Below the pieces are notes generated by a model that saw only the letters and a list, made by a program, of their open reading frames with translations, searched no databases and was not told the DNA's origin. The position numbers and the translations under genes were made by a program. Below, one piece after another: positions 36,714 to 50,493 of a stretch of DNA of 64,000 nt; position 1 is the stretch's first letter; every line of letters starts with the position of its first letter. The DNA comes from Lepraria neglecta (Eukaryota; Ascomycota; Lecanoromycetes; Lecanorales; Stereocaulaceae), in the NCBI GenBank assembly GCA_033220425.1, contig CM065646.1:1743501-1807500 (forward strand), read 5' to 3'.

Positions 36714-39700
36714 ATGATGAGCCCGCAGTCGGAGGGCAGGCCGTCTACTGACAGGCAGCCTGGAGAAAACGGCTATAACAATCGGGGAGGATATCGACAG
36801 CAAAGCTTTGAGGATAATCGGAATACACAGCCCGGGCGTGCAAATGGCTATGGCCAGACAGACATTCCGAAACAAAGATTCATGGGTCCACCACCAGCAC
36901 CTGGAGAGTCAAGAAGTCCGAACGGCAGCTTGCCACACTCACCAGTAGATGGGCGCAATGGCCGAAGCAGAGAGACGACACAAGATCTGCCAATCCGTGA
37001 ACGATCACGAACCAACGGAGCACCTGGAGCCAAGTCCTCTGGTACCCTCAGGCTTTGCAAGAAGTGCGGTGAAGCCTTGACGGGGCAGTTCGTGAGAGCT
37101 TTGGGGGGTACTTTCCATCTGGATTGCTTTAGATGCCGGGTAAGTACAGGTACCCACCCGTTGAGGTCAAAAGAACTGACCATGCATGCAGGACTGTGGG
37201 GATATCGTTGCTTCCAAATTCTTCCCTGTCGATGACGACGAAGGCGAGGGCCAGTACCCCCTTTGCGAAACCGACTACTTCCGCCGACTTGATCTACTGT
37301 GCTTTGACTGTGGGGGTGCTCTTCGCGGTTCCTACATTACAGCTCTGGATCGGAAATACCACATCGAGCATTTTACCTGTTCGGTGTGCCCGACAGTCTT
37401 CGGTGCGCAAGATAGCTACTACGAGCATGAAGGGAAGGTATACTGTCACTATCACTACTCGACGCAGTTTGCGCAACGATGCAATGGATGCCAGACAGCA
37501 ATCCTTAAGCAATTTGTGGAGATATTCAGGAATGGCGAGAACCAACATTGGCATCCCGAGTGCTACATGATCCACAAATTCTGGAATGTGCGGCTGGCAC
37601 CACCAGGCGTCGATGGCAGTAACCCACCACATGCTGAGGAGAACGCCACTGAAGATAAACGAACGTTGGTACGGGTGGAGGAGGAACAGATGGAAGAGAA
37701 AGTCTATCGGATATGGAGCGTTCTCTCGGCCTTCGAAGAATCTTCAGCAGCTTGCATATCGGACATGCTTCTCCACGTCAGTAACGGCTCGTATGTGGAG
37801 GGCATTCTAGTGGCGAAGAAGTTCATCTGGCACGTGGACATATTATTTGGGGGTACAGACAGGTTAGACTTTCTCATGGTCTCAGAGGGTCTGAAAGGTA
37901 CGTCTTGTGTTAGCTCCGAATATCTGGACATCACTAATACTTACCGCTCAGGTCTTTCCTATGGACGAGAAGCAAAGCTGCTTTGCAAGAAGATCGTAGC
38001 CTTCTTCTCGTTGCTCTCCAAGACGCAGGAGACCGGTGTCAAAAAGCTCGGCGTCACTCAAGAGCTGTTGTCATTGGTCACGGGTCTGGCGCACTATCTC
38101 AAGCTCCTTATTCGCATCAGTCTGCAAGGCGCCCTGAAGCTGGAACGTGAACGACGAAGCCTTGAAGGCCTCCATCGCTTCCTCGCGGACCTGGAACATC
38201 TGGAATCTGTCAAGGAAGCCGAAAATTCCGATCTACTTTCGGATGTCTCTGGGCTAGCGGATCAACAATCAGATCTCTGTCACAAATGCAAGGAGCCGAT
38301 TGACGATGAATGCGTCAAGTTGGATAAGCAAAGATGGCATAAGCACCACCTGACTTGCGACTACTGTGAGAGGGTCTTGGGCGAAGACTTGAAGGATGCG
38401 TTGTGGAGCGAGCGAGAAGGTCAGGTTGTATGTCGACGCTGCCACGAAGAGAATCGTCAAGCACCGGACGCCACCGCGAGCTTCGAGGCAATCACAAGAC
38501 TTCAGCAATACGTCTACCTACTTCGAGTTGCTCTTGCGAGATTGCTTTCTGTCCTTCGGTCGGGAGGCGCTCTACCTCATACTTCAGACGATCCGAATCT
38601 AACGACATACGATTCCAAGGCCGGACATCGGGTAAATGAGAGCGGACAGCCCGAACCACCACTCCTTAGGGAAACCTCGCGGTCAAAGTCCTATGGCGGG
38701 ACTGAAGTCGCGGAGAATAATGCTTCCTCCTATGAGCAAACGGTTGGGGAGATGAAGAGACTTCGGTCTACTCGCATGGACACCCAACTCTCCACAAACC
38801 TCAAGAAAGCTCGCACTTCTCGAATACTTGATGGTCCAGAGGGTTTCAGTAGAAGGCCAGGATCAGCTGGAGCAGATGGCTCGGATCAGAAGCAACAAGG
38901 CTTCCACATAGTGGAAGATCGAGACGCCAACAATGACACCACTACTAGCAACCTGATTTTCGGCCACCAAGACGCGCTTACCCTCGATGACATTCCAAGA
39001 ATAGTCGCTGCAGAGCAAGCGAAAGAGCAGCGGCCCAATGCTTACAAACATGCTAAAAATCAGTTGATCGGCTCTGGTGGGCGAGAACCCAAACTCTACA
39101 GCGGTCATCAGCGCGGTGTCTCTGGAGGAAATGACCTTGACATCCCTGGGGGTGACACAGCACCTCAGCGGATGAAGAGATACTTTTCCGAGCTCTCTGC
39201 TTTGGAATATTTCATCGTCCGTCACGTTGCGGTTCTCTCGATGGAGCCACTACTGGAAGGTCACTATAGCCTCGAAGAACTACTAAACCTAATAGAAACA
39301 AGGAAACCAACGTTCTGGGGCAAGTTTGGGAAAGCCTTCCAGAAGAACAATGACAGACCAAAAGGCACCAAGAAGAAGGGCGTCTTTGGTATTTCCTTGG
39401 ATGTGCTTGTTGAGAGAGACGGTGTGGAATCCACCTATGGCGTTGGACCTGGTGCTCTGAGAGTACCTGGCATCATTGACGATACTATCTCAGCCATGCG
39501 ACAGATGGATATGTCTGTGGAGGGTGTCTTCCGCAAGAACGGAAACATCAAGGGCCTTCGAGATTTGACCGAGAAAATCGACGCGAAGGAAGTTGAGGTC
39601 GACCTGTCAAAAGAAAATCCAGTTCAAGTGGCTGCTCTACTCAAGAAGTTCCTCAGAGAGCTCCCGGATCCTCTGCTGACCTACAAGCTATACCGGCTGT

Positions 39701-40618
39701 TCATCACCTCGCAAAGTAAGTCGTTCGCCCTCTTTCTACCATGATGCCAATTTGCTGATTCCCTGCGTCAGAAATCACGGACGAGGAGAAGAAACGAAGA
39801 GTCTTACATCTCACATGCTGTCTATTACCAAAGAGTCACAGAGACTCTCTGGAGATCTTGTTCTCTTTCCTTGTCTGGGCTTCATCTTTTTCACAGGTAG
39901 ACGAGGAGTCTGGTAGCAAGATGGACACGCACAATCTCGCCACTGTCATAACGCCAAACATTCTCAAAGAGAAGAGCGCTGTCGTTGGCCAAGATGAAAG
40001 CAGTTTCCTCGCTATCGAAGTTATCAACACATTAATAGAGTATAACGATCAGATGTGTGAAGTAAGTCCCTCTCCTGCTCTCCTCGCCGAAATATTCAAA
40101 TCTAACTTCGAATGCAGGTCCCCGAAGATCTCCAATCCATCCTAAATGACTCCTCCCTCTTCAACAACAGCTCCGACATAACCACCAAAGAAATCCTTAA
40201 ACGTTACGGCGATATTGGCCGCTCAGCCGCCCACCATCCAGTCATTACCGAACAATCCCCCGACACTCCTCCCTCCCGCTCCAAAGACACCTCCAGCGCC
40301 AACCAAACCAAACCCGCCGCCCCAGTAATCACCCACGTCGACACAGACCCCTACCAAACGCCCACGTGGCCGAAAGAGTCTAGTGTGAGGCATGTACAGG
40401 GCCAGGCACAAGATGCGCCTACATATCCAAGCACGTCAAATAATACACCGTCCCTGCGCGAACACGAGTGGAGGGACCCTAACAGCCCCTATCACAGAAG
40501 AGGTGGCAGCAGTGAGAGCCAAGCCAGCAACCGAAGCGGCCCAGGACACGGTCACAAATATTCAGGCTGGGGCAACAAGGGTGCGCCTGGGGCTATGGGT
40601 GTCACAAATGCCTCATGA
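36714..40618 (+). CDS. LRG1: LIM-domain Rho GTPase-activating protein (LRG1 type)
   Basis: Stimulates GTP hydrolysis on Rho-family GTPases (Rho1 in yeast Lrg1), restraining cell-wall and polarity signalling at growing tips. Exons 36714-37139, 37192-37897, 37952-39715, 39772-40061 and 40118-40618 sum to 1228 aa. LIM repeats: CKKCGEAL...CFRCRDCG...YPLCETDY; CFDCGGAL...FTCSVCPTVF...YCHYHY; a third CNGCQTAILKQF...HPECY; and CHKCKEPIDDEC...CDYC...CRRCHEE at about residues 375-435. The RhoGAP domain holds VFGISLDVL, the arginine finger in VEGVFRKNGN, KKFLRELPDPLL and NLATVITPNIL. The tail is Ser/Pro-rich and disordered. The 54-nt intron 37898-37951 has GTACGT, CTAAT and CTCAG and no stop, so it reads through in frame if retained. 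LRG1 is preferred to RGA1 because of the LIM number. Confidence 0.9.
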
Positions 40619-41118
40619 ACCTTTCGCCCTTATACTTCTCTTGGCGCTTTAGTCTATAATGTGACGGACCTGCATGGCGTTCATAAGCCGCCTCTTTATG
40701 ACTTTCTTTACCGCATGTCTTCGTTCCTCGAGTGGCACGTCTGCATACCCCGCAAGCAGCGGGTGGGCGTTCTTCATGAATGTTACAGATTGTTTTACCT
40801 GGCATGGCTTGGTGTCATTGGGTAGCATTGGGAAGTCAAGTCACACGGCGGAAAATGTCTTTTTTAAAAAAAATTTTTACTCTACATGTGCATGATAGGT
40901 GTGAGATAAGATACTTCATGATAGCGCCTGATACCCTGATACCCTGATGCAAAGGGACACGGGCAACAGGGATTCTTAGTTAATGTCGCCAATATTCATT
41001 ATACCAACTACATGTACACCAAAAATTTGTTCGTCGTGACTCTTCACCATCCAATTATTGGCAGTCTACACTCTTCAGTCGAGCAATAGCAACCAGTTGC
41101 AACGCTTGCAACGTGCTA
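40619..41118. other. Spacer between RhoGAP gene and transposon
   Basis: 500 bp with a T/A run near 40859-40877. TA at 41117-41118 is the left copy of the transposon target duplication. No gene seen. Confidence 0.6.
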
Positions 41119-41246
41119 TTAGCGTGTGATAGTAAATCGGGATTGCTTGGCAGTGGGACTCTGCAACGCGCTTGGGTAAATTTATTAGAAAATCTCACCA
41201 AAAATTTCCCTTCATTGTTGTAAACGTTCATAACAACCACAACCAC
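41119..41246 (+). repeat. Left terminal inverted repeat (128 bp)
   Basis: Begins TTAGCGTGTGATAGTAAATC and ends ATAACAACCACAACCAC. It matches the reverse complement of 44557-44684 except for TC versus CT at 41228-41229. Confidence 0.95.
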
Positions 41247-41367
41247 TATTATCGCTGCTATCGCACATAACCTGATTGCCTATTCGGGTAATCGTGAGGC
41301 TCCTGGCAGTGGTTTTTTGGTGTTTCATTGCTGATATTCCAGCAGCTGCCACCTCCTGCTGCGCCGT

Positions 41368-42390
41368 ATGCCTCCATTCAGAAAAGATCCATCCGTTCAT
41401 CAGCGCGCCTTGCTACTATTCGAATCACGTTGGCGCCCTCAGGCAGTAGCTGCAGACGCTCGAGCCAGTCGAACAACAGGCTACCGTTGGGAGAGAAATA
41501 TTGCAATATATGGTGATACTGTGGTTCCTCCTTGTCTGCAGACCTATGGACCACGCCGTCGCCTTACTCCTAGTGCTCTCGAGTTACTGCTTGAATATCA
41601 GCGTCAAAAGCCGTGGCTCTATCAGGATGAGCTCGCCAGGTTCCTTGCGGAGGAGTGGGATATACAGGTTCATCGATCTACCATCTTAAAGGCCCTGAAA
41701 GAAGCCGGCATCAGTCGGAAAAAGGGTCAGCGGATAGGCCCACAAAGCGAAGAGTTGCGTATTGCATGGCAAGCGTTTGCGATGCAGGTGAGGGCCGAGC
41801 AGTTGGTGTTTATCGACGAATCGCTGTTTAAGCTACAGACGATGTGGCGAGCTATGGCTTATGCTCCTCTCGGTGAGCCTGCTCGCTACCATGGCGATAT
41901 GAGAAGAGGTGATACATATAGTGTTTTGCCTGCATATACTACTGAAGGCTACCTTCCCTGTACCGGGATCAAGCAAGGTTACTACAACAAAGAGGATATT
42001 ATCGACTGGTTGCTTAACCACCTGCTACCGCTGTGTAACGAGTATCCAAGGGAGCGTAGTATCATCGTTCTAGATAACGTCAGCGTTCATGTCGACCAAC
42101 GGATTATACAGGCGATTGAGGAGAAGGGCTGTATCGTGAAATATCTTCCTCCTTACTCGCCAGACTATAATCCTATTGAGCTTACATTCAGTTTGCTTAA
42201 GGCGTGGATGAGGCGTTATTTCGAGACCTTCCGTCCCGTCTTTCAGAATGATTTTGAGGGCTTCTTGCAGTATGCAGTTGATAATAGTGGATGTGATACG
42301 AAGGCTAGAGAACATTTCCGATATAGCGCCGCTGGCTATATATCCAACGGTGATATTGAGGCTTTTGAGCGAGATCTGGAGGAGCTGTAG
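41368..42390 (+). CDS. Tc1/mariner DD34E transposase
   Basis: A 340-aa intact transposase catalysing cut-and-paste transposition. The N-terminal helix-turn-helix region (residues about 1-120, basic; RSTILKALKEAGIS resembles the second HTH) binds the terminal repeats. The DDE catalytic triad is Asp in LVFIDESLF, Asp in IIVLDNVSVH, and Glu in DYNPIELTFS. 34 residues lie between the second Asp and the Glu, hence DD34E. PPYSPDYNPIE is the superfamily signature. The ATG at 41368 lies 122 bp inside the left TIR. No stop or frameshift is seen, so the enzyme is probably active. Confidence 0.93.
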   Translation: MPPFRKDPSVHQRALLLFESRWRPQAVAADARASRTTGYRWERNIAIYGDTVVPPCLQTYGPRRRLTPSALELLLEYQRQKPWLYQDELARFLAEEWDIQVHRSTILKALKEAGISRKKGQRIGPQSEELRIAWQAFAMQVRAEQLVFIDESLFKLQTMWRAMAYAPLGEPARYHGDMRRGDTYSVLPAYTTEGYLPCTGIKQGYYNKEDIIDWLLNHLLPLCNEYPRERSIIVLDNVSVHVDQRIIQAIEEKGCIVKYLPPYSPDYNPIELTFSLLKAWMRRYFETFRPVFQNDFEGFLQYAVDNSGCDTKAREHFRYSAAGYISNGDIEAFERDLEEL

Positions 42391-42464
42391 TCCTGAGGCA
42401 GCTGTATCTATATTATTATCTACTGCTAAAACTACTTTAATCTATAGACTTGCCTCTATACGAT

Positions 42465-44498
42465 CTAAAACCCGCCCCCGTACTCAGCTACCCTTTGTAG
42501 ATTGCGAGCATGTTGATATGTATCCCTCCACTGCTGCTTAAACTCTCTCAGATTATCTTTGAGGCCTCGTACTAAGCCGTCCGGCAGGTCTTTGTCAATA
42601 GCCTTCCTGTAGATATCAGATGACGTGTCAGCCATAGCTTTGAGGTCACTGATCTTCCACATCTGCCTCTCGACTATCGCCTGCGCCTGAGAGTATTGTA
42701 GCTTCCTCTCTACCTTGTCTGTAGAGTCTCTCTTCCACTGCCAGAAACCCTCTATTATATCATCTTCCTCGTTCCTCGGACCAATCGGACTGGAGCGTTG
42801 CGCCGCTTGAACAGGTGGACCGGGTGGATTGGATAGAGCTCGTGGAGCAGGTGTTGGAGACGGCGCTTGAGGAGGGAGGACGTATTGCTGCGTAGTATAG
42901 CCACCGTAGCTACTGTACGGTTGCTGCGTCGTCGGATACTGGCAGGCCGATTGGTAAGGGTACTGGGGGGGGCCCTGATACTGCTGATACTGCTGTTGCT
43001 GACGGTTTTCATTAACCATAGACCTCATAGACTTCATATTCTCGAACTCCATCTGCTGCTCGAGCATCTCCTTCATCTGATCCATAGCCGATTTTTTAGG
43101 CTTCTTTTGCGACTGCGTCTCCGACTCGTTTGTCTGACCGATAAGCGACTTATATACCGAAAGAGGTGGTTGTATCTCACTGGCCTGGCTATACTGGATC
43201 GCAGTCGCCCATCTCTCACGCAGAATAGCATTTACCCTGTGGTGTTCACCAGTATCATCAATCCAGCAGGTGCCTTTATGGCCGCAACTTGCTGCCTGAC
43301 ACTTCCATCTAGTGATCAACCGCTCACTGATATCACCAACGGCCTCGTTGCGATCACGAGCAACACTATGTTGCTCCTCGAGACGATCGGTTCTTGTGCG
43401 ACGATGAGACGGAGATTGAGTAGGGCCGTCAACGGCCTGTATACATCTTCTTAATCCAAGGCGGCAGATAATATCGATATTAGTATCGATAGGATAGCCG
43501 GTATGTCTTCTCCACTCAGCAGAAGTAATACTCTCGACCCGCGACTCCCATTCGTCTATACACAGGGCGTTGAGGGTGAAATATTGACGGGTTGATCGAT
43601 TCGCTGTAGATTTCACATACCCTTTGATCTCGACGATCTCACCGAGAGTATGCTGTTCTACGCTTTTATCAATCTCGACGATCTCACCGAGAGTATGCTG
43701 TTCTACGACTTTATCAATCTCGACGAGCAAGGCGTTGATATCGAAGCTACCTGATTTCCATAAGCCACCGATTTTATTACTCCATTTAGCTGAGGTATGG
43801 CTTCCGTTCTGGACCTTTAAACAGGCCCTAAGTGAGTACTCATGAGGGCCGTTTTCAATAGCCTCAGACCTCTTCATCTCTTGCAGTGTCCGTGGCGAAT
43901 ACGGTTCTCTGGTTAACGGTGTCTCGTCTAGCAGTTCTTCTGTTGTCATCCGCTCACGCCTCAGATCTAGTTGCTGTTCCTCCTCTGCACGGCGTTGTGC
44001 TTCTATGCGACGATCTAAGTCCTCCCTCTCGCGCTCCGAGGCCTCCACTTCAGCCTCAAGAGCTGTATCGCGAGCCTGCTGCTCTCGCCGACGGCGTAGC
44101 GAATCCCTGACTTCCTCCCTCTCACGGAGCGCAGCTAGTTGAGCAGCGTCCCTACGTTGTCGGGCCTCCTCCCTCTCCTGTTCCCTCTGGCGACGGCGCT
44201 CCTCATCCTCAGTCCGCTTGCGCTCACGAGCCTCCTCCCTTTCACGCTCCTTTTGAGCCCTTTTAGCAGCATCTTCTTGTGCCTTCTGTCGCTTCAGGTG
44301 GGCAAGCCACTCCAGGCGCTGCTGCTTCTCCTCCGCCTTCCGCTTCTCCTGCTCCGCCCTCCCAGCTACTGCGGCGGCGGTCTGTTCATCAGAGAAAGAG
44401 ACGCCGCGTCGACTACGAGCGCGGCGTTGAGGAGCAGAAGCCTCAGCTGGGTGGCTGTCGCAAGCCGACGAGCGAGAATTTTGGGTGTTTCGTGGCAT
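42465..44498 (-). CDS. Transposon accessory protein: coiled coil plus Cys/His motif, unknown function
   Basis: A 677-aa intact ORF inside the transposon, convergent with the transposase, starting 59 bp inside the right TIR. Order: a basic Ser/Arg leader; an Arg/Glu-rich coiled coil at about residues 45-195; a possible folded domain (YSLRACLKVQNGSHTSAKWS to REYFTL-like strands) holding a 15-aa tandem duplication (VEIDK-VEQHTLGEI); a Cys/His block RWKCQAASCGHKGTCW-x5-GEHHRVN that may bind zinc; a Gln/Pro/Tyr-rich tract with QQQQYQQYQ; and a helical C-terminus. I recall similar C-x4-C-x-H-x3-C blocks in lineage-expanded fungal proteins tied to repeats, but cannot name the family. A role in transposition or silencing is speculation. 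Confidence 0.85.
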   Translation of the reverse strand: MPRNTQNSRSSACDSHPAEASAPQRRARSRRGVSFSDEQTAAAVAGRAEQEKRKAEEKQQRLEWLAHLKRQKAQEDAAKRAQKEREREEARERKRTEDEERRRQREQEREEARQRRDAAQLAALREREEVRDSLRRRREQQARDTALEAEVEASEREREDLDRRIEAQRRAEEEQQLDLRRERMTTEELLDETPLTREPYSPRTLQEMKRSEAIENGPHEYSLRACLKVQNGSHTSAKWSNKIGGLWKSGSFDINALLVEIDKVVEQHTLGEIVEIDKSVEQHTLGEIVEIKGYVKSTANRSTRQYFTLNALCIDEWESRVESITSAEWRRHTGYPIDTNIDIICRLGLRRCIQAVDGPTQSPSHRRTRTDRLEEQHSVARDRNEAVGDISERLITRWKCQAASCGHKGTCWIDDTGEHHRVNAILRERWATAIQYSQASEIQPPLSVYKSLIGQTNESETQSQKKPKKSAMDQMKEMLEQQMEFENMKSMRSMVNENRQQQQYQQYQGPPQYPYQSACQYPTTQQPYSSYGGYTTQQYVLPPQAPSPTPAPRALSNPPGPPVQAAQRSSPIGPRNEEDDIIEGFWQWKRDSTDKVERKLQYSQAQAIVERQMWKISDLKAMADTSSDIYRKAIDKDLPDGLVRGLKDNLREFKQQWRDTYQHARNLQRVAEYGGGF
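43627..43716. repeat. In-frame 45-bp tandem duplication within the accessory ORF
   Basis: Two copies of a 45-bp unit (ATCTCGACGATCTCACCGAG...), plus the first bases of a third at 43717. They encode VEIDKSVEQHTLGEI twice, with one Ser/Val difference. Near-identity suggests recent slippage. Confidence 0.9.
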
Positions 44499-44556
44499 CG
44501 TAACACCGTCGTATTCGTATTGGGTCTATACAAGAGCCTCAATGATATTTGCAATG

Positions 44557-44684
44557 GTGGTTGTGGTTGTTATAGACGTTTACAACAATGAAGGGAAATT
44601 TTTGGTGAGATTTTCTAATAAATTTACCCAAGCGCGTTGCAGAGTCCCACTGCCAAGCAATCCCGATTTACTATCACACGCTAA
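44557..44684 (-). repeat. Right terminal inverted repeat (128 bp)
   Basis: Reverse complement of the left repeat with two mismatched bases. The outer end is CACACGCTAA, followed by the TA duplication at 44685-44686. Confidence 0.95.
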
Positions 44685-44892
44685 TAAGCGAGGCTGTGCC
44701 TGCTCCAAGCGACCTAGAAGGCGTCCTTTCCCAGTTCGCCCACTGCTATGAGTCAACAACACTAGCTCGCGCTCAACGCATTCATAGACCACTCGAAGCT
44801 CCCATTTCAATGTTTAATAACCATCTACCGCTTCGTCTCATTCCAAAGCAAGACATTTTCTACCTTATCTGTTCAACGATATTCCTAGTATC

Positions 44893-47528: not shown

Positions 47529-50493
47529 ATGGATGGTTCTTTTGAGACCTACGGATCGCCTCCAGTCAAGACAGAGCAGAGGTGGGGGCGTGAGGATATA
47601 ATGGATCGACAACCATCAGGCAATGACCCTTATCGGGGCCGGCGATCTCCCGGTAAGATTTCAGATGCGGAGTGATTGGAATCGTTGCAGTCATTTCACA
47701 GTGCTTTACGCGAACCTGCGTCCCCTCCTTTCTACACCTATTCGCATGGGTCTGTTCCAGGAGAAGTCGTTTTGCTTTGCAATAGTCTCTCGTCTACTCT
47801 TTCCGTGAAGCTCTCCAAAACTTATAATATGACAGAAACTTATCAATCTTCTAATGCAGTTATGCAAGATCGACGAGGAGGCTACCGCGGAGGCCGAGCC
47901 CGTTCACGCTCACCAATGCATATTGATCGTTATCAACCTGGTGCGCGGCTCCCACGAGATGACTTTTATGACCAATCCCGCGATCATGCTTCACGCAACC
48001 GAGATGATCGTCGTCGAGGGCCATCTCCGGCACCACTGATCGATCGTTACGTCCCCGGCCAAACTCCACAACCCGCCATCATTGTCAACCCATTGCCCAA
48101 TCCGCTTTCTCTAGAATTCCAGGTCGGCTTCAACTGGTTTGCTGAATGGTGGCGCACGGAACAAACGATCAAAGAGGACAAGGAGCGTGCCAAGACGGGC
48201 CGAAGGCCGTCGGAGAGAGGTATCAAGGGCGAGCGCGAATCTCGAGAAGACCGTGAAAAGGAGCGAGCACAGATCCAAGTTTCCTACGATGCCTATAAAG
48301 AGGAGTTGCAAGTCAAAATGGCTAGAACCTTTGTCCAACAACACAAACCCGAGGAGTGGTTCAAAGAGCGATATCTGCCAGAGATTCGCGACCCTTTCAA
48401 GCAACGACTGACGGAATTTCGACGCGGTGCGCTTAGTCAATGGGGAAATGATATTGAAGTGGGAGCCTTTGATGAATTTACGCTTGAAGGAATCTACAAG
48501 GCTGAGAGCGATGGACTGGGTGGAGTAGTTGAGAAGGAAGAGGGTGAGACTATTGCCGCTGCCGAAGTCCTTGGTGTTGGTGACCTGGTGCCCAGTCGGG
48601 GGGGTGACATTCGGGACGAATCAGCTTTGCAGCCAGCCCTCCTGATCAAGACTCTCGCGCCCATGGTTAGCCGCGGCAAGATTGAAGAATTCTGCAAAGA
48701 GCACCTCGGAGAGGAGGAAGGAGGGTTCAAGTGGCTAAGCTTGAGCGATCCTAACCCTTTGAAGAAGTGTCACCGCATTGGGTGGATAATGCTGCACCAA
48801 GGTCCTGAAGAACCCGCTACACAGCCTGAGCGAGGTGACGGTAGGGACGAAGACAAGGAAGACGGGGAGGATAGCATGGCGGTGGAGTCAAGGTCGATGC
48901 CCACAACTGCCGAGAAGGCGCTCGAAGCCATCAATGGAAAGACAATCCACGACGAACCCCGGGGCGACTTTACATGCCATGTCGGTGTACATGTCCCACC
49001 AAAGGAGCCGCGAAAGAAAGCTTTGTGGGACCTCTTCGCTGCGCCCGAGCGTATTGAGCGTGACCTTGAACTTGCAAAGCGTCTAGTATCTAGATTCGAT
49101 CAAGAATTCGGCTCGGATGCAGATGGTGTGACCAAAGTTGAGCAACGTGTGGAGTATCTTCGAAGCATGGGCTTGCTGCAGTCTTCGGTTGCTGCCCCAG
49201 TCAAGAAAGAGAAGAAAAGCCAGCAGATACTTGGCGTGGAAGATGATGAGATGGAGGACGGCGAAGAAGGCGAAGAGGAAGAAGAAGGATTTATTGATGA
49301 AGAAAATGATAGCGAGGAGCTACTGATCAAAAAGAAGACACTCGATTTGTTGGTCGAATATCTTCGTCGGGTGTTCAACTTCTGCTTTTTCTGCGTCTTC
49401 GAGGCTGACTCCGTTCATGAGCTTATACGCAAGTGCCCTGGAGGCCATCTACGTCGCCCAAGAGCCAGCTTGAGCACTTCGGCCAAGAATGCTGCGAAGG
49501 CTAGCGCACTTGGGCAGCCTTTCCCACTAAAGCGAGAAAAAACAGAGGATGGCACCGAGAACGGGTCACCTGTCCAGGAAAAGTACAACAAGAACTTTAA
49601 GAGCGACCAACAGCTCCTACGCGCTTTCAACTGGGTAAAGACGTTTGAGGAGAAGATATTGCAAATTTTAGAGCCCGAGAATGTCGATGTCAGAAAGTTG
49701 GGCGGCAAGCCTCTCGAGGAGGGTCTCGATGAGGAGCTCAAAAAATTCGTCAAGCAAGAGGATGAGTCGAAATTCAGATGCAAAGTGCCCGATTGCACTA
49801 AGCTCTTCAAAGGTGACGTCTTCTGGCGCAAGCACGTTGAGAAGCGTCATGACGAGTGGTTCAACAATATCAAGACTGATGTAAGTGGTAGACGTCTTAT
49901 TGGTTCATGTTCCTATGCTAACGTGGTTTCAGCTTACCCTCGTCAATACATACGTCCTCGATCCTTCCCATATCGCTCCATCCCGCTCCGACGCGAACAG
50001 CAACGGCCATTTCCCAATGAACAATCATAACATCACCGCCGGCACCCCTCGCGGTTTCAGTCTCCAAAACAACCCAATGATGAATGGCTTCAATCCCGGC
50101 TTCCCTAATCAGTCCACTTTCCCCATTTTCCCTCAGTTCGGAAACCATACCGTCCAAGCACCAAATGGCTGGGCTATGAACGGCATGGCCTCAAACGGCG
50201 ACGAGATGCATCAAACCGGTCCGATGCGTCGTCGTGGTGGTGGTTTTAACACACGACAAGGGCCATATGATCGTCGACAACAGCCGCGTTTCAATAACGA
50301 TGGGAGACTAACGCCTATGAGCAACGGCAATCCAATGAATCGTCGAGGCGGATTCGCTGGCGGAGCTGGCAAGTGGGGTGATGGCGGAGCTCAGACCGTT
50401 GGGCCAAGAGAAGCCGTACAGGGGAGGACGATTAAGAAGTATGACGATTTGGATGCAGTGGAAGGCGGTGCTGGGGGCGAACTTAATTATTAA
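47529..50493 (+). CDS. ARS2: ARS2/SERRATE-type RNA effector protein
   Basis: Nuclear cap-binding-complex partner that directs RNA processing and decay (fission yeast Pir2). Exons 47529-47652, 47860-49880 and 49933-50493 give 901 aa; exon 1 (MDGSFETYGSPPVKTEQRW) joins after a 207-nt intron. An Arg/Ser/Gly-rich N-terminus precedes the SERRATE/Ars2 N-terminal block (VGFNWFAEWWRTEQ). Next come YDAYKEELQVKMARTFVQQH, EEWFKERYLPE, a central block (IGWIMLHQG), HELIRKCPGGHLRRP, and a C2H2 finger (CKVPDCTKLFKGDVFWRKHVEKRH, shown in part). The last exon is Asn/Gly/Met/Arg-rich with RGG-like motifs (RRRGGGF, NRRGGFAGG). An acidic run sits at about residues 515-540. Essential in most fungi. Confidence 0.93.

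Follow-up and report, generated by a model that had tools for sequence, protein, structure and literature searches.

The 64,000-nucleotide stretch of Lepraria neglecta DNA analyzed here (contig CM065646.1, positions 1,743,501 to 1,807,500; hereafter the window) contains, at positions 41119-44684, an element of 3,566 bp that encodes a transposase (TN) and, on the opposite strand, an accessory gene (AC). We interpret this element, denoted A1, as a probable full-length member of the IS630-Tc1-mariner superfamily that transposes by cut-and-paste and carries two genes, which move as a unit and of which AC may act as a cofactor. That TN and AC constitute a two-gene mobile unit is close to certain. 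At least four diverged lineages in the genome searched (G000, 42.0 Mb, 11 contigs), denoted A, F, J, and K, carry the TN/AC pair tail to tail, and the recurrence of the same pair in other families suggests that AC is a regular partner of TN and not an accident. An earlier note on this DNA had proposed that the accessory protein travels with the transposase; this proposal is supported, as both genes were identified between matching terminal inverted repeats (TIRs) in several elements of the genome.

The boundaries of A1 were confirmed exactly. Its ends read TTAGCGTGTG...CACACGCTAA, at 41119 and 44684, with TA adjoining each. The inverted repeat of 128 nucleotides with two mismatches that the note had described was confirmed, and it extends to 134 nucleotides at 98% identity when the TA and further inner bases are counted. 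Inside the TIRs, the stop codons of TN and AC are separated by 74 bp. The transposase open reading frame (ORF) is intact, as had been claimed, encoding 340 aa with D150, D236, and E271 as the DD34E residues (34 residues separate D236 from E271) and matching Pfam DDE_3 (E 1.3e-29). The N-terminus matches HTH_33, HTH_23, and HTH_Tnp_Tc3_2, each under its curated cut-off, and the closest solved structure found by sequence is a SETMAR chain, at E 0.002 only.

The note had labeled the element Tc1/mariner. The DD34E spacing and the TIRs are in keeping with that label, but TN also passes the cut-off of the NCBIfam IS630 model (129.7 bits against a cut-off of 100), and IS630-Tc1-mariner is therefore the safe superfamily label. 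In a plasmid collection, TN matched 785 records, all at <60% identity; among the eight matches listed, six were annotated as IS630 transposase and two were without annotation. A DDE_3 catalytic domain with DD34E spacing and terminal inverted repeats place the element in this superfamily. A classical Tc1/mariner element is defined by a single gene in 1.3-2.4 kb, whereas A1 measures 3,566 bp, K 4.05 kb, and J ~4.0 kb. The TIRs are 128 bp in A, 90 bp in K, and 89 bp in J; F has a 46-bp segment.

The A-type TIR had nine matches genome-wide at 95-100% identity, derived from five copies (A1-A5), of which A1 is the intact one. Both A1 and A4 (C6:4457514-4461274) hold TN and AC between A-type TIRs, with A4 carrying many stops and an insert of ~235-240 bp and missing one unit of an in-frame 45-bp repeat in AC. 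In A2 (C2:4885775-4887970), an internal deletion takes most of AC and TN has two stops, and A5 (C6:4534590-4553796) is stretched over 19 kb with AC mostly deleted; both retain parts of both genes. A3 comprises the left 1,348 bp only. AC or its remains occur at the same place in all four A copies that have both ends. Changes in A2-A5 relative to A1 were nearly all C-to-T and G-to-A; in A4, 216 of 223 changes were of these types, 181 of them at CpA/TpG. This pattern reads as the mark of repeat-induced point mutation (RIP) and, with the gene content, points to a filamentous ascomycete as host. The A4 insert (L040/L041), located within AC, has a possible 5-bp repeat at its edges and is maybe a small non-autonomous element.

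Family F (C5, ~4432.3-4436.3k) comprises convergent TN and AC, each with stops, between inverted 46-bp segments, with identities to A of 50-58% (TN) and 34% (AC). In family K, a 2,803-bp stretch comprising TN and the 3' half of AC is identical at eleven loci. One K copy, when extended, proved to have 90-bp TIRs that match perfectly, a transposase divided between two ORF pieces (presumably by an intron), and an opposite-strand ORF of ~612 aa with the same Cys/His motif as AC of A. Searching with the K TIR, for which 40 of 49 candidates were scored, returned 40 matches that gave 12 pairs 4,048-4,052 bp apart and spans of 1.3, 10.6, and 13.4 kb. Both genes were read whole in one K copy, and TN with the 3' half of AC in eleven. 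K, considered as a one-gene control family, proved on reading to carry the second gene. Its copies (e.g., L025 861-3663, and L083) are identical over 2.8 kb despite RIP-type decay elsewhere in the genome, and K is apparently a very recent burst of a two-gene element. The K copy in L025 is located downstream of an ORF that we take to be P450-like.

Family J has an 89-bp TIR (97.8%), a transposase in two ORF pieces, and an opposite-strand ORF of 670 aa, open further upstream, with the Cys/His motif; the convergent ORFs are 49 bp apart. Six J loci are 100% identical on both sides queried. The TN side of J had 42 matches, of which the 12 of at least 550 bp were paired (the rest being short pieces or a flank repeat, query ~1-142); 10 of these 12 have the AC side within 6 kb. 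Further diverged convergent relics were identified at L081 and C6:26.5-29.8k and, weakly, at L075. Internal-deletion derivatives of the F type, ~0.8-0.9 kb in length, keep the terminal segments (L020, L016, L021, L022, L037, and L062-L068), and several also retain the 5' half of the transposase.

To evaluate the pairing against chance, AC loci were collected with the A and G AC proteins alone as queries (G being an AC locus described below), and 38 matches (13, 14, and 11), many at the same places, were merged by hand into 17 loci. Seven of the 17 are convergent with a TN match within 4 kb: four A copies, F, and two relics. Random placement, drawn on contigs C1-C8 only, yielded a mean of 0.06 and a maximum of two convergent pairs in 5,000 trials. 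The four A copies are not independent; when A is counted once, four unrelated convergent places remain. A scan of the genome for DDE_3 gave 67 matches. Among the 19 of at least 80 bits and with no internal stop, 18 are in two-gene elements (A1, 11 K, and 6 J), as assigned by TIR pairing and partial matches except where copies were read, and the remaining one is the truncated A3. This suggests that the best-scoring open transposases of this type in the genome travel with AC; the lower-scoring matches (e.g., C4:844939, with an open frame of 369 aa) may include one-gene relatives. This co-occurrence is the strongest hint that AC may be needed, yet it is a correlation only.

AC is not unique to A1, as relatives were found at many loci, and capture of a host gene by this copy alone was rejected on that basis. 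No single fixed host gene that could be the source of AC was found in G000, and G bears an F-like transposon terminus. Relatives of AC were not confirmed in viral contigs (searched with the A, J, and K proteins) or in prokaryote genomes (searched with the J protein), and none of TN from A was confirmed in viral contigs.

The 677-aa AC ORF of A1 is stop-free, as the note had stated, with the Q/P/Y tract visible and the Cys/His block at C400-C405-C411-H419. Across A, G, J, and K, this motif takes the form C-x4-C-x5-7-C-x6-7-H, with spacings after C-x4-C of x5/x7 (A), x6/x7 (G), x6/x6 (J), and x7/x6 (K); F has Tyr in place of the third Cys. The AC proteins have diverged between families but remain significantly linked. 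Profile-profile alignment (hhalign) of the A/F/G proteins with the J/K proteins, spanning the Cys/His block and the flank upstream of it, gave E 5.1e-8 and a probability of 94.8. Pairwise blastp matches ranged from J-K (9e-8) through G-J (6e-5), G-K (1e-4), and A-K (7e-4) to A-J (0.003), and a profile of A, G, and F detected J at 8.9e-5, a value that none of 2,000 shuffles reached. The C-terminal region is conserved in F and G (FW.WK ... LPDGL.RG...LREFK) and, judged by eye, perhaps resembles J and K (IKPG.G..LAR). Kinship among the AC proteins is strongest between A and F/G and between J and K, and the catalytic half of TN groups alike (J-K 56% identity, J-A 33-34%).

Comparison of G with F shows that selection on AC in this branch was purifying, with identities of 0.85/0.88/0.66 at codon positions 1/2/3 and a dN/dS of 0.24 (374 codons, stops excluded). 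For J against two RIP-mutated relatives, dN/dS was 0.37, 0.60, and 0.67 in three comparisons, with decay mixed in, and silent sites of A against G or F are saturated. Domain searches did not assign AC to a described family. Pfam returned no model at curated cut-off for A, G, J, or K; G matched Nop25 under the cut-off (E 0.0018). PHROGs gave one weak match for A (phrog_18871 'replication', E 0.002, aa 137-241, largely the charged helix) and weaker ones for G, and a PDB sequence search with AC gave only matches at E 0.045 or worse. A structure model of A1 AC, predicted from the single sequence with no alignment, has one long helix at aa 40-187 (block-mean pLDDT ~90 over most of it), probably a coiled coil, and is helical with moderate confidence at aa 577-674. 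Of the features described by the note, the helix of the probable coiled coil is predicted with high confidence, whereas the center containing the Cys/His motif is not predicted.

Table 1. Features of element A1 and its immediate flanks (window positions).
Feature	Positions	Strand	Basis or remark
TA, putative target-site duplication, left end	41117..41118	.	other complete A copies have TT or AT
Left TIR, 128 bp	41119..41246	+	
Transposase (TN), 340 aa, DD34E (D150, D236, E271)	41368..42390	+	Pfam and NCBIfam IS630 match
Accessory gene (AC), 677 aa, convergent with TN	42465..44498	-	ORF; relatives elsewhere in genome
Long charged helix of AC (aa 40-187), probably a coiled coil	43938..44381	-	single-sequence model
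In-frame 45-bp tandem duplication in AC (15 aa twice)	43627..43716	-	A4 lacks 45 bp here
AC Cys/His motif C400-x4-C405-x5-C411-x7-H419	43242..43301	-	kept in G, J, K; in F third Cys is Tyr
AC Q/P/Y-rich linker	42819..43016	-	sequence
AC C-terminal helical region	42477..42770	-	alignment with F and G; model
Right TIR, 128 bp	44557..44684	-	
TA, right end	44685..44686	.	

Neighbors of A1 in the window are a LIM/RhoGAP ORF on one side (37186-39744) and an Ars2-like ORF (47829-50030) and a kinesin on the other. These are from the 5 of 15 ORFs of at least 220 aa that were scanned; shorter or spliced genes may sit nearer.

Several observations weigh against the reading of AC as a conserved cofactor that moves with TN. 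Eight of the 17 AC loci have no TN match within 4 kb (L075, with a weak TN piece, is counted here), and two have TN on the same strand. These two (L049 and L050) have AC and TN pieces on one strand and share ~3.2 kb at 92% between C5 and C1; they were rejected as separate cases and are probably one rearranged relic that was duplicated. Among J loci, 5 of the 15 longest on the AC side (those of at least 1,150 bp among 24 matches) have no TN side within 6 kb. G (L043 1432-3147, C6:346.9-348.6k) is a nearly open AC, with one TAA and no TN in the locus, which suggests that AC might persist alone. The profile of A, G, and F failed to find K above shuffled K, and K is therefore tied to A via J, weak pairwise matches, and the profile-profile match. 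In the N-terminal half of TN, J is no closer to K (34%) than to A (40%). The model of AC is confident only in its helices, with aa 188-468 and 508-578 mostly at pLDDT <50. For the majority of K and J copies, the placement derives from TIR or partial matches and not from full reading, and the homologs compared are all from this one genome.

The note had also described TA duplications. These are present in A1, but not in the three other complete A copies: the dinucleotides adjoining TTAG...CTAA are TA/TA in A1, TT/TT in A2, and AT/AT in both A4 and A5. Left and right dinucleotides agree in 4/4 complete copies; with a random match probability of 0.0635 in the window, agreement in four of four would arise by chance at ~1.6e-5, for a test chosen after seeing the data. 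Either the A target duplication is of 2 bp and not limited to TA, or TA is duplicated within a TTAA target (T-TA-GCG...CGC-TA-A) and the outer bases agree by chance or are palindromic. In K, TA flanks both ends of one copy and the left end of each of the 11 copies read, and J has TA in one copy; by analogy, these plain TA ends would favor TA inside TTAA. Five F-type ends have CTG at the matching place, which favors a non-TA 2-bp duplication, and the target duplication itself is unreadable in the F derivatives. If they are true duplications, TT and AT are unusual for Tc1/mariner.

We propose that TN binds the TIRs via its putative N-terminal helix-turn-helix and excises the element, which it would then insert at an A/T-rich dinucleotide. 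TN would perform the chemistry, given the presence of the catalytic residues and by analogy with the superfamily. AC would be an element-encoded cofactor acting with TN: its long coiled coil may oligomerize, its CCCH motif (a putative zinc motif) may, together with the neighboring region, attach to chromatin or to the DNA of the TIR or target, and contact with TN may be made through the C-terminal helices. There is about an even chance that AC promotes transposition as a cofactor, through binding, assembly, or targeting. A role as regulator, passenger, or something else would be less probable, and a role in countering host silencing less probable again.

In the last of these roles, AC would shield the element from RIP, methylation, or small RNA, outside the reaction itself, which we consider unlikely. 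A2-A5 show RIP-type decay, yet eleven K copies in the same genome carry no difference over 2.8 kb, and a TET/JBP dioxygenase is reported in several groups of fungal DNA transposons (PMC12730594). However, RIP in A2-A5 weakens the idea, as these copies were mutated although family A has AC; K may simply have arisen after the last sexual cycle, and AC has no recognizable enzyme domain.

It is more doubtful still that AC derives from a host gene that an ancestral element captured once and that has since been carried as a passenger, giving no help to transposition. AC has no known function or Pfam family, G has AC without TN, and some transposases of the IS630-Tc1-mariner superfamily work alone in vitro. 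Against this, four lineages that share only ~30-58% transposase identity retain the pair, selection on AC in the F/G branch was purifying, and AC remains an open frame in those copies of K and J that were read, both recently burst families. AC could be a repressor or copy-number regulator of its own transposase from the opposite strand, and we give this as little credence as the passenger reading. With 49 bp (J) or 74 bp (A) between the convergent ORFs, antisense interference is possible, and F deletion derivatives without AC are common, but bursting families would be expected to lose a pure regulator, whereas K and J keep AC. Finally, typical Tc1/mariner members carry one gene (PMC4188875), but A1 as such an element with an unrelated chance ORF can be dismissed as refuted by AC relatives in the same position across many copies and families.

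Returning to AC as a cofactor, a further possibility, short of an even chance, is that these elements represent an undescribed, ancient branch of IS630-Tc1-mariner that is obligately two-component, with AC, as a dedicated zinc-motif coiled-coil protein, required as RAG2 is for RAG1, co-inherited in at least four lineages, and perhaps relaxing the TA rule in A. Tc1/mariner transposases are the standard example of a one-protein, host-independent cut-and-paste system. A lineage in which selection maintains a second gene would allow a direct test of why some transposons need a partner protein, and would parallel the RAG1/RAG2 arrangement in fungi. K and J, with many identical copies, are good experimental material. 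In addition, AC relatives, which have no Pfam family here, could be annotated as transposon proteins and not as 'hypothetical' host genes.

Among described fungal elements, one-gene Tc1-Mariner members of Sclerotinia (1.8-2.3 kb, 36-70-bp TIRs; PMC4188875) and Ti_tr2 of Tuber indicum (one gene, 1.9 kb, 45-bp TIRs; PMC3864998) resemble A in their DDE transposase and TIRs and, as far as the TA flanks of A1 go, perhaps in their TA targets. The elements described here differ in their length of 3.6-4.05 kb, second conserved gene, and TIRs of 89-128 bp (46-bp segment in F). Styx of Zymoseptoria (IS3EU-type) is also a TIR element from a fungus and carries several genes, two of which have putative DNA-binding motifs, but it is 7.9 kb, has four ORFs, and belongs to another transposase superfamily (PMC10853768).

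The arrangement of a transposase and an accessory gene, convergent and tail to tail between TIRs, is shared with RAG1L-RAG2L elements, in which the accessory gene is the less conserved of the two and usually has a PHD finger (PMC7204232). In contrast to these, TN is a DDE_3 transposase and not RAG1-like, the duplication is 2 bp and not 5, and AC has no Kelch or PHD match; no relation was detected. PIF/Harbinger elements also have two genes, a transposase and a DNA-binding protein (PMC3562529), but TN is DDE_3 and AC has no Myb-like or other DNA-binding Pfam match in A, G, J, or K, and no homology was detected.

Additional genes are known from Tc1/mariner itself. Mariner elements with Fanzor1, an endonuclease, or a methyltransferase (Bao and Jurka, 2013; PMC3627910) carry cargo that differs between related elements and includes known enzymes. 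AC of A, G, J, and K is without those domains and is kept across lineages: no Pfam model for the RuvC-like and C4 zinc-finger (Fanzor/TnpB) regions matched these four at E <=1 (the models listed were others, all under their cut-offs), and Fanzor or other known cargo was rejected as an identity for AC, with no Pfam support (A, G, J, and K) and none in NCBIfam (A and half of G). The ciliate Tec/TBE elements are multi-ORF DD34E transposons with three ORFs, one in the complement, but Tec carries a site-specific recombinase (PMC7325037). No fungal IS630-Tc1-mariner family with such a second gene was found in the open-access full-text literature, in the portions available (Repbase and most subscription journals were outside the search), and a Repbase consensus entry for such an element quite possibly exists. 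Of the systems compared here, the closest described are the Mariner elements with Fanzor1, endonuclease, or methyltransferase genes (PMC3627910) and the ciliate Tec/TBE elements (PMC7325037).

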